The notes: generated by a model from the letters alone, not told the origin. A DNA stretch of 46,591 nucleotides from Candidatus Eiseniibacteriota bacterium (GCA_030609365.1 JAUWCJ010000007.1:1-46591), one strand, 5' to 3'; shown: positions 27,412-34,181, numbered from the stretch's first letter. Program-made: numbers and translations.

Positions 27412-27562
27412 GATGCAACCCCCAGTGATGTGCCACATCGGTCCCACGAACGAGGTGTTCGGGCACCCCGACGCATCACCACTGCTCAACCTCAAGAATC
27501 GCGCTTCCGGGGGGCTCCCTGCCCGTTCTGTGCCGGAAGCATCCCCTCCTGAGCTGGTTCAA

Positions 27563-27579
27563 ATGCAAGACCTGGGCCA
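27563..27579 (-). promoter_or_regulatory. Sigma-54-like -24/-12 promoter before the kinase operon
   Basis: On the minus strand the element reads TGGCCC, five bases, TTGCAT. The consensus is TGGCAC-N5-TTGCA, so only one position differs, and the GG and GC dinucleotides are spaced by the required ten bases. The kinase ATG is about 140 bases downstream. No rpoN is visible in the window, so use of this site is inferred. Confidence 0.45.
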
Positions 27580-27706: not shown

Positions 27707-27726
27707 GGGGCCCCGTGATGGGCCCC
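27707..27726 (-). terminator. GC hairpin, possible end of the CHAT-sigma-anti-sigma transcript
   Basis: Arms GGGGCCC (27707-27713) and GGGCCCC (27720-27726) flank a 6-base loop, about 50 bases after the anti-sigma stop. Only CTTCTGC follows on the minus strand, so a classical U-tract is missing. Confidence 0.45.
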
Positions 27727-27774
27727 CCCGAATTCGAAGATCCGCGAATGTTGCCGGAAGCGGAGCGGCAGACC

Positions 27775-28668
27775 CTACTCGGGCTCCTCACCCGGCGCTG
27801 CAAGAACGACGATCAGACGCGCGCTGCCGCCCGCCTCCGCGGGCAGTCCGGTCAACTGCAGCACGTTTTCCCCTCGCGCCAGCGGCCACGGACCGAAGCG
27901 TCCATCGGCGTCCAGGGACTCCGGACCCGTCCTTACCCCGTCCGAGGACAACACTGCGGAAGCCGTCGCGGCGGGAGTTCCTGCCACCGTCACACGACAC
28001 GTCAGCGAAGGCGCCGGGTCATCGGCGCGCACAAGACCTTCCACGGCCGCTCCGCCTGCTCCGCTCCAGTGAAGCCTCACTTCCCTGCCTGAGCTCCTGC
28101 CTGTCGCCATGGCGGGCTCCGCCAGGAACACGGGAGCACCGCCTGTGACTCCCATCCACGCGGACGCGAAGTCCCGGACGAGCTGGATCGAGCGCTCGCT
28201 CCAGCGCAGCACTGCGATCCGCGACTCACCCTCCAACCGCGCCAGTACACCGGCAACCGCGCTGTCCGACGCGTCGTGCTCCGCCGCGCCGGACATGGCC
28301 CAGAGGTCCGCGACCTCCGAGAAGCACCTGCGGCACGACATGAGGTGTTCCTCCACTTCACCCGCGGGCCCCTTCTCGAGTGAGCCATCGACGTAACCAG
28401 CGATCGCGGCCGCGTCCGGGCAGTTGGCTGAGCAGGACGCGTCAGTTACTCCGCCTGAACCTGTCCGAGAGAGAAGGGCCCCCGGACCGCCCGTACTTCG
28501 TAGCCCAGCCCCTCGCAGCACGGCCGCCATCGCGCGCAAGCCCGACACGATCTCTTCGCAGCTCTCGCAATCGGCGACGTGCGAGTCAACCTCCTCGGCA
28601 TCCCGGCCCGTGAGTTCGCCCTCCACGTAGAGCAACAGCTTCTCCTTGTCCGGACAGCTCCGCCTCAT
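27775..28668 (-). CDS. Soluble anti-sigma factor with two zinc-finger modules
   Basis: The start is ATG 28668, seven bases after the sigma-factor stop. Two tandem ZAS-like modules are visible. Residues 5-40 have CPDKEKLLLYVEGELTG and H-x3-C-x2-C in HVADCESC; residues 82-118 have CPDAAAIAGYVDGSLEKG and HLMSCRRC. The second half (about 150-297) is beta-rich with repeated VxVAGTPA-like stretches and no membrane helix. ZAS domains bind ECF sigma factors. Gene order sigma then anti-sigma fits. Two modules in one chain and the lack of a membrane anchor are unusual. The C-terminal domain is not recognised; it might be the protease-sensitive or sensing part. Confidence 0.8.
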   Translation of the reverse strand: MRRSCPDKEKLLLYVEGELTGRDAEEVDSHVADCESCEEIVSGLRAMAAVLRGAGLRSTGGPGALLSRTGSGGVTDASCSANCPDAAAIAGYVDGSLEKGPAGEVEEHLMSCRRCFSEVADLWAMSGAAEHDASDSAVAGVLARLEGESRIAVLRWSERSIQLVRDFASAWMGVTGGAPVFLAEPAMATGRSSGREVRLHWSGAGGAAVEGLVRADDPAPSLTCRVTVAGTPAATASAVLSSDGVRTGPESLDADGRFGPWPLARGENVLQLTGLPAEAGGSARLIVVLAAPGEEPE

Positions 28669-28675
28669 GCTCCGC

Positions 28676-29314
28676 CTACCTCTCTTCCCAGTAGCGCGCC
28701 ACGCCGCCTGCGGCCCGCAGCTTCGCCAGAGCACGGTAGACCAGGCCGCTCATCGCACCTACCGTCAGCCCCAGGCGCTCGCCGACCTCCCGGTACGTGA
28801 ATCCCTCAAAGTATATCAGGTTGACGGCCAGCGCCTCCCGGGTCGTCAGTGCCCGCTCAATGGCCTGCTCAAGCGAGATTCTGAGGTCACTGTTCTCCCT
28901 CGAGGACGGCGCCGCCTCTCCCGGTCCCGCGCTCCCCCTGGCTCCCTCTTCGAGCTCCGGCACCTCTCCCCTACGGCCTTCTTTCCGCAGGCGGTCGATG
29001 CAAACGTTTCTGACGATCCGGTAGATCCAGGTCTCCAGTTTGCACTGGCCCTTCCAGGACCTGAGGGCGCGCCCGTTCTGTCTCAACAGCTTGTACATCG
29101 CTTCCTCGAACAGTTCATCCAGGACAGTCTCGTCCCACTCCGCTCCGTAGCGGCCGTTCACCCGGTGAATCGCGCTGTAGATGAGGCGCCTGTACCGCTC
29201 GATGAACTCCGACCACGCGCCGGAATCCCCGGAGCAGAGCCTGTCTATCATGCCGTTGATTCCCGGATTAGTGTCGTGTCGAGGCGTCAACCCGGCCCAC
29301 TTCCTTCCTGTCAT
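28676..29314 (-). CDS. RNA polymerase sigma factor, ECF-like sigma-70 family
   Basis: I start it at ATG 29314, which overlaps the CHAT stop (TGATG); the frame runs 19 residues further into the CHAT gene. The 212 residues have region 2 (about 22-110, LYxxxR-type FIERYRRLIYSAIHRV and KLETWIYRIVRNVCIDRLRK). A Glu/Gly/Ser-rich linker (about 111-140) precedes region 4 (about 145-205, ALTTREALAVNLIYFEGFTYREVGERLGLTVGAMS, HTH). Region 3 is absent, as in ECF factors. The anti-sigma factor follows by seven bases and the protease precedes by overlap, implying co-regulation of all three. Confidence 0.9.
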   Translation of the reverse strand: MTGRKWAGLTPRHDTNPGINGMIDRLCSGDSGAWSEFIERYRRLIYSAIHRVNGRYGAEWDETVLDELFEEAMYKLLRQNGRALRSWKGQCKLETWIYRIVRNVCIDRLRKEGRRGEVPELEEGARGSAGPGEAAPSSRENSDLRISLEQAIERALTTREALAVNLIYFEGFTYREVGERLGLTVGAMSGLVYRALAKLRAAGGVARYWEER

Positions 29315-30837
29315 CAGTCGCCTGACCGACCGGAATTCTTCGCAGGGAAATGTGCGGAGAAGGTCCCACACAGGGCCAGCGCGGGGTCACCGTACAGCAC
29401 GTAGTTTGCCCAGGTGACGGGGTGCCGGCCAAGTAGCGCCGTTCTCGCCGCCGTCACCGCCGCGCCCAGCGTAGCTCCGCCGAGCAGCGCCTTGTAGAAC
29501 GCGACGCTGAAGTCACCGCTGCCGGCGTCGTGCAGCTCGGCGAGAGTACAGAGGTAGGCGGGAACTCCTGCCAGCATCAGGGCGCGCGCTGCGTCGGCCA
29601 CGCTCTCACCCCGGCTGGACGGATTCGAGCTGCACGCGTTCGCGAAGACGATGGTCGGCGCCGGGACTCCGTCCGAGAGCAACTGCGCCGGGCTCACAGC
29701 CGTGCCGTCGCCCAGCACCCACCCCCGTTCCAGACCACCGGCGGCGCCCGTGTGACCGGCGAAGTGCAGCACGTCGAATCCCTCTCCCAGAAGCTGACGC
29801 AGCTCGCCCGCCGACCGCGGCGACTTCCTCACGACTCGCAGCAGATCCGGCTTCGTGGCGCTGAGCTCGAGAAGGTCCACCGCCTCACGCTCGGCCGCCG
29901 GAAGCTCCCGACCGGGGACACCCGCCTCCAGATTGGCAAGAAGAAGCAACCGGCACCGGCCGCCACGCCTCACCGCAGCGGGCCTCACCGCGGCGGTGTC
30001 GCGGAGCTGGCGCGTCACGGAGAAACGCTGCCAGAGGAACTCGCCGCCGCTGCGCGCCACCATAAGCTCCCAGGGGATCCCCGAGAGCTCGGCCTGAACA
30101 CCAAGCTGCAGGTGGTCACCCGGGAGGTCGAGCAGAGCGTCCGCAACCTCAGTCGACCCGCCGAGAAGAGTACTTCCGATAGCGAGCCCGAGAGCGTAGA
30201 GCTCCCGCTGTGCGTCGTCTATTTGAGCGCGGCTGAAACTCCCGCTCCCGTCTGCTCCGGCGAACGATGCACTTCTCTCCGCGAGCGCGTGGAAGGCCGC
30301 GACGATGCGCTCCTCCTCGAGTGGGTTCCGATCGAGGACGGAATCACTCGCCACGGCGTCACGCGAGCCCGCAACCACCACGGAGATCATCCCGGGCGGC
30401 TCGGCCCTGAACTGCACGGCCGGCGCCACCACCGCCGGCACCGCCAGCGGAACGGAGCGCTTTCGTGACACGATGAAAAGGACCGTCGCCAGCCCGAGCA
30501 AGAGCACGGCCCACGCCGGGTGCAGGAATGTCTCAGTGCCTCGGGCGAGCGCACCGTAGACCGCCACCCTCACGCTCCCGTAGTCGAGAGACCTGAGAAC
30601 GACCCAGAGGACAGTGAGTGCCAGGAAAAGCCACGCCAGAACGAGGGCCGGGAAGCGCCTCTTCCCCGGTGTCCGCTCGGAAGGCGAACCCGGGTGAGTC
30701 CAGCGAACAGACGCTCCGAATCGCTCGCCGCACGCGCGGCACCGGAACGAGCGTTCCACCGTTCCTTCCGCCCTGCTCCAGCTTTCGCCCTCCACGTCAA
30801 GGCGCCCGCCGCACTTCGGGCATCGTTCCCGCTTCAC
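29314..30837 (-). CDS. Membrane-anchored zinc-ribbon CHAT-domain protease
   Basis: I start it at GTG 30837, six to seven bases after GGAGG; an ATG at 30903 would make the N-terminus out of a perfect hairpin. In the 507 residues, a zinc ribbon uses C6, C9, C33 and C36. Two membrane helices lie at about 62-81 and 107-123. The CHAT domain (about 215-490) has GIPWELM, catalytic H362 in VLHFAGHTG, catalytic C402 in VFANACSS, and ends YVLYGDPALAL. CHAT proteins are caspase/separase-clan cysteine proteases. There are no TPR repeats. Coupling to a sigma/anti-sigma pair suggests the anti-sigma factor or a linked regulator as substrate, but that is inference. Confidence 0.88.
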   Translation of the reverse strand: MKRERCPKCGGRLDVEGESWSRAEGTVERSFRCRACGERFGASVRWTHPGSPSERTPGKRRFPALVLAWLFLALTVLWVVLRSLDYGSVRVAVYGALARGTETFLHPAWAVLLLGLATVLFIVSRKRSVPLAVPAVVAPAVQFRAEPPGMISVVVAGSRDAVASDSVLDRNPLEEERIVAAFHALAERSASFAGADGSGSFSRAQIDDAQRELYALGLAIGSTLLGGSTEVADALLDLPGDHLQLGVQAELSGIPWELMVARSGGEFLWQRFSVTRQLRDTAAVRPAAVRRGGRCRLLLLANLEAGVPGRELPAAEREAVDLLELSATKPDLLRVVRKSPRSAGELRQLLGEGFDVLHFAGHTGAAGGLERGWVLGDGTAVSPAQLLSDGVPAPTIVFANACSSNPSSRGESVADAARALMLAGVPAYLCTLAELHDAGSGDFSVAFYKALLGGATLGAAVTAARTALLGRHPVTWANYVLYGDPALALCGTFSAHFPAKNSGRSGD

Positions 30838-30865
30838 GTACTTCCTCCGCAGCGTACGCACGCGC

Positions 30866-30898
30866 CCACACGCTCTTCCCTCAGGGAAGAGCGTGTGG
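30866..30898. repeat. Perfect 33-base palindrome between the ATPase and CHAT genes
   Basis: Arms CCACACGCTCTTCCC (30866-30880) and GGGAAGAGCGTGTGG (30884-30898) are perfect; the middle TCA can close a further T-A pair. No T-run follows on either strand. It fills most of the 96-base gap, 28 bases before the CHAT start, so it could be an attenuator, mRNA-stability stem or protein-binding site. Confidence 0.85.
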
Positions 30899-30933
30899 CA
30901 CATGCTCGATTAGCAGATGCAACGTGTCCCGTC

Positions 30934-33051
30934 CTAAGCGCCCGGGAGCAGCACGAGTGAATCAGCGAACTCGCTCCCGTACCCCTCGCAGGTGAAGAGC
31001 AGCACTTGCCTCTTCGCTGAGATCTCGTCCAGGAGCTCCAGAGTAGCGGAGCGCCTGTTGGGATCCCAGTGGACGAGCGCATCGTCGAGTATAAGCGGTG
31101 AGCCATCTCCGGGGGAAAGGAATTCCAGAAGGGCGTACCTGACCGCGAAGTAGAGCTGATCCCGTGTCCCCTTGCTCAGATCCGACGTCTCCAGACTGGG
31201 CGGCGCCGAAGGAATCCCTGAAGGCGTAGTGACCGTCAGGTTGAGGTCGTCAGCCATCATGACCCGCGCGTACCGTCCGAGCGTGGACCGCGAGAGGACG
31301 CGGCCAACGATAGGCTCCAGCACCGTTGCAGCTTCTTCGTTGGCACTCGCCATCGCCTTTGTCAGGGAATCTCTGGCCAACGTCAGGATTCTTATGTTCC
31401 GCTCGAGTCCGGCGATCTCGCCTGTGACGCGCTCGATCTCCGCCTCGATATCCGGCAAGGTCTCGTCGATCTCCATGCCCTCGAGCTGAGCCTCGCGACG
31501 CTTGATGCTCTCTCTCAGTGCGTCCACACGCGCCCCGAGTTCCTCACGCTCACCGCGCAGCTTCGACACGTCGACTGCGGTCACGACAGTGCCGCTCGTG
31601 GCCGCATCTCTCACGCCTCCCTCCATCTCCAGAATGCGCCCCTCGAGGGAGACAGTCTCCGTCTGGAGTTCCCTCTCCACAGTCTCGGGATCGTTCCCCT
31701 CGCACACTTCGTAGAGGGTCGCGTTCCAAACGTCCACGTTGCGCCTCGCCTCGTCCTGCTTGGCGGCGTATTCTTCGAGTCCTCCGTAGGTACGTATACC
31801 CAGCTTCAGGAGAGACGCACTCAGCACGGTCTCGCGCTTCTTCCTCTCCTGGACAACACTCCTGATCTCCTCCGCGGCGCTCCAGACACGTGCGGCCTTG
31901 CGCAACAGCAAGAGCGCCCACGCACCCAGTCCAATGCCGGCCGCGACCATGCCCCACTTGACAGCGGCCGCCATCTCCACGAGGAAGGGAACCACTGCAA
32001 GGGTCACGGCCGCAATTGCGACGACCGCTACGCCGATGCCGGGCCGCAGGTCCGCCGGGCTCTTGACTCCGGGAACGAGTCCCTTGAGCGTTTCAACCCT
32101 ATCATCCAGCGCGTCGAGCGCCGCCTTCGCGGCAATCGCTTCCTTTTCCTGCTCACGTGAACCCTGAACCATTGTGTCCCAGGCGTCGGCGACATCTCCA
32201 CGGAGCTTTCGGATCCGGCCGATCTTGGCCGCGCGCTCGTCGAAGCGGATCCGCAGACGCTTCAGTTCTTCATCCTGACCACGCCGGGTCTCTTCGTTCA
32301 GGAAGGCCTCGTCGAGCCCGCCCAGTTCCTGCGAGGCAACGGTCAACTCCTCGCGCTCCCGCGCCAGCTCGCTCCTGACACGCTGCGTCTCGTCCCACCG
32401 CTTACGAATGACCGCCGCCCTCGGCAGGAGTTCGTCTCGCCGGTCGTGCAGTCGCCTCAGCGGACCCGGGTGCTTGGCCGACTTGTCCAGCCCTACCCTC
32501 AATCGCTCGATTCTGGTGCGAATCGTCTCGATGACCCGCGTCGCATCGACCCTTCCGCTCGAGCTCGTCATCTTCCGCTCGATGAGCGGGACAAGGGCGC
32601 CGCGACGGGCCTGTCCACCAAGTCCCTCGAGCGATGCAAGGTCGTCCTGATGCACCGAGGCTATCGACTCGAACGCCTCGCGCGTCTCGAATCCGACGAC
32701 GCCCGCGATGACGCGATCTATCTCACGGCGGTCCGCGATGACGTCGCCCTCGGTGGGGCGTGCGAGCTCCGCGGTCCCGGCCCCGAAATCCTTCGTCAAC
32801 GTGTAGCTGGCGTCTCCCTGCTCGAAGTCCAGCTCCAGCTTCATCCCGCCGCTTCCACCCCACTTCTCGAGAGATCTCACTGACGCCGCCCTCGAAGCCG
32901 GGTCCGCGAAGAGCACGATCGACAGAGCCTCAGCGATACTGCTCTTGCCGGACTCGTTCGGGCCGACGATGAGATTGAGCCCCGGCTCCAGCACGACCTC
33001 GTGGTCGGCGAAGCGCTTGAAGTTGACCAGTCTGAGGCGTTGGATTCTCAT
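30934..33051 (-). CDS. SbcC/Rad50-like ATPase with central membrane segment (YhaN type)
   Basis: The 705 residues begin MRIQRLRLVNFKRF with Walker A GPNESGKSS (30-38). Coiled coils fill about 170-330 and 400-600. A hydrophobic pair of helices (about 345-395) sits in the middle, where Rad50 has its zinc hook. The C-terminus has the ABC signature LSKGTRDQLYFAVRY, Walker B PLILDDALVHWD and a D-loop. This layout is that of YhaN, which pairs with the YhaO phosphoesterase. The ATG overlaps the phosphoesterase stop (ATGA), so the two form one complex in all likelihood. The membrane segment would tether a DNA-end-processing machine to the membrane. Confidence 0.87.
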   Translation of the reverse strand: MRIQRLRLVNFKRFADHEVVLEPGLNLIVGPNESGKSSIAEALSIVLFADPASRAASVRSLEKWGGSGGMKLELDFEQGDASYTLTKDFGAGTAELARPTEGDVIADRREIDRVIAGVVGFETREAFESIASVHQDDLASLEGLGGQARRGALVPLIERKMTSSSGRVDATRVIETIRTRIERLRVGLDKSAKHPGPLRRLHDRRDELLPRAAVIRKRWDETQRVRSELAREREELTVASQELGGLDEAFLNEETRRGQDEELKRLRIRFDERAAKIGRIRKLRGDVADAWDTMVQGSREQEKEAIAAKAALDALDDRVETLKGLVPGVKSPADLRPGIGVAVVAIAAVTLAVVPFLVEMAAAVKWGMVAAGIGLGAWALLLLRKAARVWSAAEEIRSVVQERKKRETVLSASLLKLGIRTYGGLEEYAAKQDEARRNVDVWNATLYEVCEGNDPETVERELQTETVSLEGRILEMEGGVRDAATSGTVVTAVDVSKLRGEREELGARVDALRESIKRREAQLEGMEIDETLPDIEAEIERVTGEIAGLERNIRILTLARDSLTKAMASANEEAATVLEPIVGRVLSRSTLGRYARVMMADDLNLTVTTPSGIPSAPPSLETSDLSKGTRDQLYFAVRYALLEFLSPGDGSPLILDDALVHWDPNRRSATLELLDEISAKRQVLLFTCEGYGSEFADSLVLLPGA

Positions 33052-34181
33052 CCTATGGCGTCCTTTCCCTGAAGGAGCGCCACGCCAAGCTGGAGGGCGT
33101 CCTCGATCTCCTGACGTTCCTCCTCAGTTCCGGCCTCCTCGAGCCTCGACCGCATGTGTCTCGCGAATCGCCCCACCACCAGACGCTCGGGCAGCTGGAC
33201 GAAGTCCTCGTCGGTCACCCTCAGGTGGTAGTCCCTGACGGGAGGACAAACGAAGAAGTAGTCAGCCGCGAGCTCCTCCACAAGGTCCCAGTCGTCGATC
33301 CCTGCCTCAGCCGACGTCAGCCCGGTCAGCACCAGCCGGAGAACCGCGTTGGGATTCTGGTGCGCCTGGTTTCCGACCTGCTCGGCTATTGAGAACGAGT
33401 CCGAGGCGTCGGTCAGCTCGACTCTGGCCTCGATGACGCTCCTGGCCCCGACGCGCACCTTCGTCACGATCGTCCCGCTCGCCCTCAACTCGACTCGCGC
33501 GACGTGTCCCTGACCGCCGCCGTTCATGACGACGAGTTCGGGTGACCCTGGATAGACAGCGGGCACGCCGACACCCTCGACCTCATGCCACGACCGCAGA
33601 TGTCCGAGCGCGTAGTAGGACCAACCCTGACCCGCGAGAGCTGAAGCCGCGATGGGCTGTCCGTCTTCGACGTCGTCGTTCTCCGCGGCGTGCACGACCG
33701 CCACGTTGAACGCAAACGCCGGGTCTGGCTCGAGGTCGCCCGCGCTGTCATCGAGTCCGTGGTTACCCAGAGGATTGCCGTGAATCTTGAGCCCCGCGTG
33801 CTCCACCGCCACGGAGTTCCGACCGTCCAGCCCGAGCACCGATACTCGCTCGAGCCTGCCGAACTCGGCCCGGTAGCTCGTGTAGACGGACTCGATGCCG
33901 AGGGAATCATGAGAGCCCGGAAGCAGAATGACGCTTGCCCTCGATTCGCTCGTCAGGCGCGCCAGTTCCCTCAGTACGAATCGCACCGTTGCGGCCGAGG
34001 GGTTGTTCGAATGAAACAGGTCGCCGGCGATCACGAGGGCATCCGCGTGCTGGTCGATGACCAGGTCGACGATCTTGCTCAACGTTCGTCTGAGTTCCTC
34101 TCTCTGCTCCGCTGCCCGCGGCCCAAGCCAGCCGAGCGGAGCACCGAGGTGAACATCGGACGTGTGTATGATGATGGGCAC
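33048..34181 (-). CDS. SbcD/Mre11-like metallophosphoesterase (YhaO type)
   Basis: The 377 residues start at GTG 34181, five bases after GGAGG. The calcineurin-like metal-site motifs are DVHLG (D9, H11), GDLFHSN (D54), PGSHD (89-92), VVHAAEN (H164) and ALGHLRSW (H194). Two expected ligands differ: the Asn of GNHD is S90, and the second His of GHxH is R196. Related YhaO-like proteins do vary at the first position, so activity may persist or be altered. A C-terminal capping domain (about 270-377) follows. It is the partner of the ATPase gene downstream. Confidence 0.88.
   Translation of the reverse strand: MPIIIHTSDVHLGAPLGWLGPRAAEQREELRRTLSKIVDLVIDQHADALVIAGDLFHSNNPSAATVRFVLRELARLTSESRASVILLPGSHDSLGIESVYTSYRAEFGRLERVSVLGLDGRNSVAVEHAGLKIHGNPLGNHGLDDSAGDLEPDPAFAFNVAVVHAAENDDVEDGQPIAASALAGQGWSYYALGHLRSWHEVEGVGVPAVYPGSPELVVMNGGGQGHVARVELRASGTIVTKVRVGARSVIEARVELTDASDSFSIAEQVGNQAHQNPNAVLRLVLTGLTSAEAGIDDWDLVEELAADYFFVCPPVRDYHLRVTDEDFVQLPERLVVGRFARHMRSRLEEAGTEEERQEIEDALQLGVALLQGKDAIG

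Follow-up and report, generated by a model that had tools for sequence, protein, structure and literature searches.

We analysed a stretch of 46,591 nucleotides (hereafter the window) from Candidatus Eiseniibacteriota bacterium (GCA_030609365.1 JAUWCJ010000007.1:1-46591). Its named relatives are metagenome-assembled genomes (MAGs) of Candidatus Eisenbacteria, and the host genome is that of an uncultured member of Eisenbacteria. On the minus strand of the window, a gene encoding a membrane protein with a CHAT domain is followed by a gene encoding an extracytoplasmic function (ECF) sigma factor and then by a gene encoding an anti-sigma factor. Judged from their recurrence in unrelated lineages, their shuffled order and their loss as one block, these three genes are a functional unit. 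We propose that this unit is probably a proteolytic sigma switch that operates without clustered regularly interspaced short palindromic repeats (CRISPR), in which the membrane CHAT protease would cut the soluble anti-sigma factor and so free the ECF sigma factor. A preliminary description of the same DNA had already suggested that the three genes are coupled and that the protease acts on the anti-sigma factor. The triplet is real, conserved and more widespread than that description could know, and the proteolytic interpretation is plausible and can now be made more specific.

A conserved three-gene locus

The gene calls first proposed were recovered at 30837-29314, 29314-28676 and 28668-27775 (minus strand), together with the expected one-base overlap, in which the CHAT stop codon (TGA) and the sigma factor start codon (ATG) share a base in TGATG, and the spacing of 7 bases between the sigma and anti-sigma factor genes. 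The GTG start of the CHAT gene at 30837 is preceded by GGAGG 8 bases upstream, and a sister genome has ATG at the equivalent position. A longer reading frame starting from an ATG at 30903 was rejected because the start at 30837 is conserved and has a ribosome site. Within the genus, purifying selection acts on each of the three genes, with ratios of nonsynonymous to synonymous substitution rates (dN/dS) at about 0.2 for the CHAT gene, 0.15-0.19 for the sigma factor gene and 0.24-0.34 for the anti-sigma factor gene.

We then looked at the conservation of the locus in related genomes. In the phylum set, 19 of 20 genomes have a match to the CHAT profile (E 0.001), one of these 19 matches (in G015) being marginal only. 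Seven of the 8 genera, in each of which the locus itself was read, share the triplet at a single syntenic site. Wherever contigs were long enough for it to be judged, one gene order is kept: tetratricopeptide repeat (TPR) lipoprotein, SbcD-like protein, SbcC-like protein, CHAT protein, sigma factor, anti-sigma factor, histidine kinase, response regulator-GGDEF and tadA. In the genome representing genus g2 (G006, 100% complete), CHAT, sigma factor and anti-sigma factor genes of the triplet type are all absent. This genome keeps both flanks, with a distance of about 130 bp between the SbcC and histidine kinase genes. In a tree built from six flanking proteins, it falls inside the family, as sister to a triplet-bearing genus (support 0.98), so that a joint loss of the three genes is most likely. 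Exactly these three genes are missing and the SbcCD-like pair is kept, which argues that the triplet is a functional unit.

Recurrence outside the family

To extend the comparison, 386 genomes were searched with the CHAT profile and the flanks of the matches were scanned with hidden Markov models. In several unrelated lineages, CHAT genes were found to have sigma factor genes and genes for zf-HC2 anti-sigma factors next to them. Searching with a profile of these anti-sigma factors, without reference to CHAT, gave 17 usable loci, i.e. loci outside the family, absent from the profile and with enough room on the contig. A CHAT gene lies at most 1.3 kb away in 16 of these 17 loci, nearly all of which also have an adjacent sigma factor gene. 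One of the 16 (L107) also turned up in the CHAT search, and another (L184) has a weak CHAT match (3.5e-6). The gene order outside the family is CHAT-sigma-anti-sigma, sigma-anti-sigma-CHAT or convergent. The association is therefore not one frozen synteny block, and the triplet, far from being unique to this contig, is coupled as first supposed. The idea that unrelated genes merely lie together by chance has a single locus in its favour (L210, described below) and nothing else; the conservation across unrelated lineages, the varied gene order and the joint loss in G006 make it extremely improbable. A plasmid search with an anti-sigma homologue found none.

Other features were observed at some of the loci. 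In one lineage (L118, L201-L206), a conserved gene of about 185 amino acids lies between the CHAT and sigma factor genes; its product has a signal peptide, an AhpC/TSA-like (peroxiredoxin-like) fold and a C-terminal helix, as a secreted membrane-anchored protein would. This is a hint that the signal in that lineage concerns the envelope or the redox state, with the protein as a possible envelope redox sensor. The CHAT proteins of L107, L108 and L112, encoded beside sigma and anti-sigma factor genes, begin with an N-terminal adenylate/guanylate cyclase domain, to which CHAT, a membrane helix, TPR and a CsgG-like part are joined in this order. The window's own genome has a second CHAT gene (L001, contig 104), which encodes a large TPR-CHAT protein; no sigma factor gene was seen in the 4 kb covered.

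The predicted protease and its candidate substrate

The features first ascribed to the proteins, i.e. a zinc ribbon, two membrane helices and the H362/C402 pair in the CHAT protein and a double zinc finger in the anti-sigma factor, were all found again by Pfam, hydropathy and codon positions (Table 1). Besides CHAT, the window CHAT protein matches Peptidase_C25 (6e-7), and several CHAT proteins of these loci have additional matches to Peptidase_C50 (separase) and C25 (gingipain). The best known members of these two clan-CD families cleave after Arg. In the aligned CHAT proteins, the homologues keep the His/Cys pair without exception (H362 in 49/49, C402 in 50/50), and H358 is also highly conserved. 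From its family membership and this conserved pair, the protein is predicted to be a Cys protease. As the preliminary description had stated, the CHAT protein has no TPR match (Pfam) and the window contains no CRISPR-like repeat array.

The sigma factor matches only Sigma70_r2/r4 in Pfam, and TIGR02937 (sigma70-ECF) at 1.2e-27. The anti-sigma factor matches zf-HC2 twice (2.4e-14); with an HxxxCxxC finger and a gene adjoining that of the sigma factor, it can be classed as a zinc anti-sigma (ZAS) factor. Its fingers match RsiW, ChrR and DdvA in the PDB, and from these families it is expected to bind and inhibit the neighbouring sigma factor. The linker and the C-terminal beta domain are collinear between the anti-sigma factors of the family and those outside it (hhalign P 6.6e-4, 141 columns). 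A PDB fold search with the weak AlphaFold2 (AF2) model of the anti-sigma factor returned nothing at E 0.001.

Arg191 is invariant in the 40 anti-sigma homologues (40/40), which puts its conservation on a level with that of the zinc-binding Cys pair, and it is the sole residue kept in an otherwise variable linker. As a rule, the residue before it is small or hydrophobic and the one after it is Gly or Ser. Since Arg191 is invariant and several of the CHAT proteins match C25 and C50, we propose the bond after Arg191 as the most likely candidate cut site; this evidence is circumstantial.

Membrane topology

Hydropathy gives two transmembrane segments in the window CHAT protein (residues 63-81 and 105-123) and none in the sigma or anti-sigma factor, in agreement with the membrane anchor claimed for the protease. 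None of the full-length anti-sigma factors of this type has a membrane helix, and most of their CHAT partners have one. In most CHAT proteins from outside the family, a single membrane helix follows the CHAT domain, and in several of them a nucleotide cyclase precedes the helix and TPR, CsgG or PEGA domains lie beyond it. With the cyclase on the CHAT side of the membrane segment and TPR, CsgG or PEGA on the opposite side, CHAT and the anti-sigma factor should therefore share the cytoplasm. The positive charges before the helix in the outside proteins, and around the helical hairpin in the family, fit a cytoplasmic CHAT domain. On these predictions the usual ECF layout is reversed, the protease carrying the anchor and the inhibitor being soluble. 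In the more distant TPR-CHAT loci L126, L140 and L149, the anti-sigma factor is in the membrane instead.

A proposed model of the switch

In the resting state, the soluble zinc-finger anti-sigma factor would keep the ECF sigma factor inactive in the cytoplasm, and the CHAT protein would sit anchored in the inner membrane, the CHAT domain facing the cytoplasm. A signal sensed via the membrane or zinc-ribbon part would switch on the His362/Cys402 protease. This protease would then cut the anti-sigma factor in the linker that joins zinc finger 2 to the C-terminal beta domain, the bond after Arg191 being the most likely target, and the sigma factor would be freed, perhaps once the finger fragment had been degraded further. 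The sequences directly show the unit with its recurrence and joint loss, the conserved catalytic pair, the exchange of membrane roles and the invariant Arg, whereas protease activity, substrate, cut site, signal, signal sensing, sigma release and regulon belong to the inferred part of the model.

Several points weigh against this model. Cleavage of the anti-sigma factor by the CHAT protein is a deduction from sequence comparison. The finger fragment alone might still bind the sigma factor, so that a second degradation step may be needed, and the role of Arg191 could be structural. Between the anti-sigma factor and its distant homologues, the similarity of the C-terminal part is only modest, as the P value above indicates. 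The AF2 models are shallow, built from 6 and 4 close sequences with predicted local distance difference test (pLDDT) scores of 48 and 57, and too weak for conclusions. Locus L210 (3901-5367, minus strand) has a sigma factor and a CHAT-type anti-sigma factor with the linker Arg, and no CHAT gene on its 10-kb contig. Finally, D437, a candidate S1-pocket Asp, was considered as proof of Arg specificity and set aside as mixed: one lineage has Ser at this position and still has the linker Arg.

The protease could also be the output of the system rather than its trigger: the sigma factor would drive its own operon, and the protease would attack other proteins under stress, as an effector or in cell death. 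Many ECF sigma factors do drive their own operon, and CHAT proteases act as defence effectors; the window CHAT protein also has a weak PADLOC match to SAVED_CHAT (2.6e-5). However, PADLOC gave zero matches for the sigma or anti-sigma factor, and the context gives no support to a defence-island setting: the module lies in a vertically inherited core neighbourhood. Such an output would moreover leave the invariant linker Arg unexplained, and we regard it as quite improbable.

Transcription unit and neighbouring genes

The preliminary description was right about the triplet and placed the boundary of the unit too close, at the start of the CHAT gene: the transcription unit likely runs SbcD-SbcC-CHAT-sigma-anti-sigma and so extends upstream (Table 1). 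The SbcC/Rad50-like protein is short (705 amino acids), with a hydrophobic helix near residues 339-357 and a YhaN-like AAA_27 match. We considered the SbcD/SbcC-like pair as an essential part of the switch and rejected this, since G006 retains the pair although the triplet is missing, and in other lineages the triplet occurs in the absence of the pair. The stem-loop between the SbcC-like and CHAT genes is very stable (z -6.2 against shuffles) and kept in the genus, with 2 base pairs showing changes on both sides; it could separate the expression of the SbcD/SbcC-like group from that of the triplet. Downstream, the hairpin 3' of the anti-sigma factor gene folds no better than shuffles (z -1.1) and is likely the end of the transcription unit. 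Sister genomes carry TGGCAC in the equivalent of the sigma-54-like element, and because this element lies 5' of the histidine kinase gene, the latter probably forms a unit of its own. In the genus alignment, the region 5' of the SbcD-like gene shows no clear autoregulatory ECF promoter.

Table 1. Features of the locus, with positions counted from the first base of the window.
Feature	Position	Strand	Basis
SbcD/Mre11-like nuclease, 4-base overlap with SbcC-like gene	33048..34181	-	profile matches, spacing
SbcC/Rad50-like ATPase, 705 aa, probably same transcription unit	30934..33051	-	profile matches, synteny
Strong RNA stem-loop between SbcC-like and CHAT genes, without T-run	30857..30905	-	fold against shuffles
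CHAT protein, 507 aa, GTG start, TGA stop	29314..30837	-	gene call, Pfam, start-site comparison
N-terminal four-Cys zinc ribbon (C6, C9, C33, C36)	30730..30822	-	Cys nearly invariant in family
Transmembrane helix 1 of CHAT protein, aa 63-81	30595..30651	-	hydropathy, charge pattern
Transmembrane helix 2 of CHAT protein, aa 105-123	30469..30525	-	hydropathy, charge pattern
CHAT domain, aa 234-484	29386..30138	-	Pfam PF12770 7.9e-26
Predicted catalytic H362, codon CAC	29752-29754	-	residue conservation
Predicted catalytic C402, codon TGC	29632-29634	-	residue conservation
ECF sigma factor, 212 aa, regions 2 and 4	28676..29314	-	gene call, Pfam, TIGR02937
Soluble anti-sigma factor, 297 aa: two zf-HC2 fingers, linker, C-terminal beta domain	27775..28668	-	Pfam, hydropathy, AF2
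zf-HC2 finger 1 (C5, H30, C34, C37)	28558..28656	-	invariant in family
zf-HC2 finger 2 (C83, H108, C112, C115)	28324..28422	-	finger common to all homologues outside family
Arg191 codon, linker before beta domain, proposed cut site	28096..28098	-	40/40 anti-sigma homologues
C-terminal beta domain of anti-sigma factor, motif RGPESxDxxGRFGPWxL	27793..28086	-	low-confidence AF2 strands, family motif
GC-rich hairpin 3' of anti-sigma factor gene, weak T-run	27707..27729	-	alignment and fold
Sigma-54-like -24/-12 element TGGCCCAGGTCTTGCATTT	27561-27579	-	conserved block 5' of histidine kinase gene

Comparison with known systems

In Craspase (type III-E CRISPR), the CHAT protease Csx29 cuts the sigma inhibitor Csx30 via H615/C658 (PMC10028731). 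As at the window locus, a CHAT protease is encoded with an ECF-type sigma factor (CASP-sigma) and its inhibitor, and cleavage of the inhibitor has been shown there (PMC10028731). However, Csx29 is a TPR-CHAT protein activated by Cas7-11 and target RNA, whereas the window locus has neither TPR nor CRISPR, and the inhibitor is a zf-HC2 anti-sigma factor instead of Csx30. Craspase is recognised by Cas7-11 and an array; the window triplet has SbcCD-like and histidine kinase genes as neighbours. Sigma switching by a CHAT protease looked CRISPR-specific in Craspase; a general module that works in this way without CRISPR would mean that caspase-like proteases are ordinary transcription switches in bacteria, and the CRISPR version would likely have arisen from it.

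The DdvS/DdvA pair of Myxococcus xanthus (PDB 8rot, 8rw5, 8rlz) also has an ECF sigma factor and a membrane protein in which a zinc-finger anti-sigma domain is linked to CHAT, and the CHAT domain of DdvA keeps its His and Cys (8rot). In DdvA, the finger (residues 7-45) and CHAT (residues 832-975) belong to one transmembrane chain of 991 amino acids, whereas the window and every related locus read have separate genes, with a soluble anti-sigma factor and only CHAT in the membrane. By this comparison, DdvA would in effect be a natural fusion of the window's CHAT and anti-sigma proteins. DdvA presumably also carries TPRs between its transmembrane segment and CHAT, for which the window CHAT protein has no match. 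DdvS controls a CBASS/CRISPR defence island (PMC12288465), and no defence-island link was seen at the window locus. DdvA, with both domains in one chain, is described as an anti-sigma factor. This would suit a CHAT protein that is a non-proteolytic membrane tether or switch, binding the anti-sigma factor, or its complex with the sigma factor, and freeing the sigma factor by a change of shape, and the conserved beta domain could serve as its docking domain. We consider this unlikely, since the invariant His/Cys pair would be superfluous for a mere scaffold and the CHAT and anti-sigma proteins are encoded by separate genes, the order of which varies.

For ECF54 sigma factors, which have CHAT genes in their genetic context and no anti-sigma factor, proteolytic control has been proposed (PMC8999054). 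By analogy, the CHAT protease of the window could degrade or process the sigma factor itself. However, the window locus has a full anti-sigma factor, the substrate that we propose, and the novelties linked to CHAT (soluble form, invariant Arg and extra domain) are found in this anti-sigma factor and not in the sigma factor; direct action on the sigma factor thus appears very improbable. The closest solved CHAT is that of SAVED-CHAT (PDB 8tl0; profile 2.6e-4, fold 1.9e-6 from a weak model), an entry titled as an activated SAVED-CHAT filament. The window protein has no SAVED domain. We take the SAVED-CHAT of 8tl0 to belong to type III-B CRISPR.

The preliminary description knew of no described system with this gene set. 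This still applies to the exact triplet of separate genes, of which no published description was found in a search that did not extend to the main ECF classification or the DdvA literature, and an earlier notice is possible. The claim was nevertheless too strong, given the DdvA fusion and the CHAT neighbours of ECF54, for which proteolysis was already proposed.

CHAT proteases occur in many genomes without a known substrate, and the adjoining anti-sigma factor gene makes its product a strong candidate here; thanks to the invariant linker Arg, a single mutant would suffice to test the central claim. It is possible, as a more tentative proposal, that a membrane CHAT protease facing the cytoplasm and cutting a soluble ZAS factor after the invariant Arg, so as to free an ECF sigma factor, defines a new signalling class across several lineages, with Craspase and DdvA as specialised versions. 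In RseA and RsiW, a membrane-spanning anti-sigma factor is cut by site-1 and site-2 proteases, whereas here the anti-sigma factor is predicted to be soluble and the protease anchored, an exchange of soluble and membrane roles that would be a new layout for ECF signalling.

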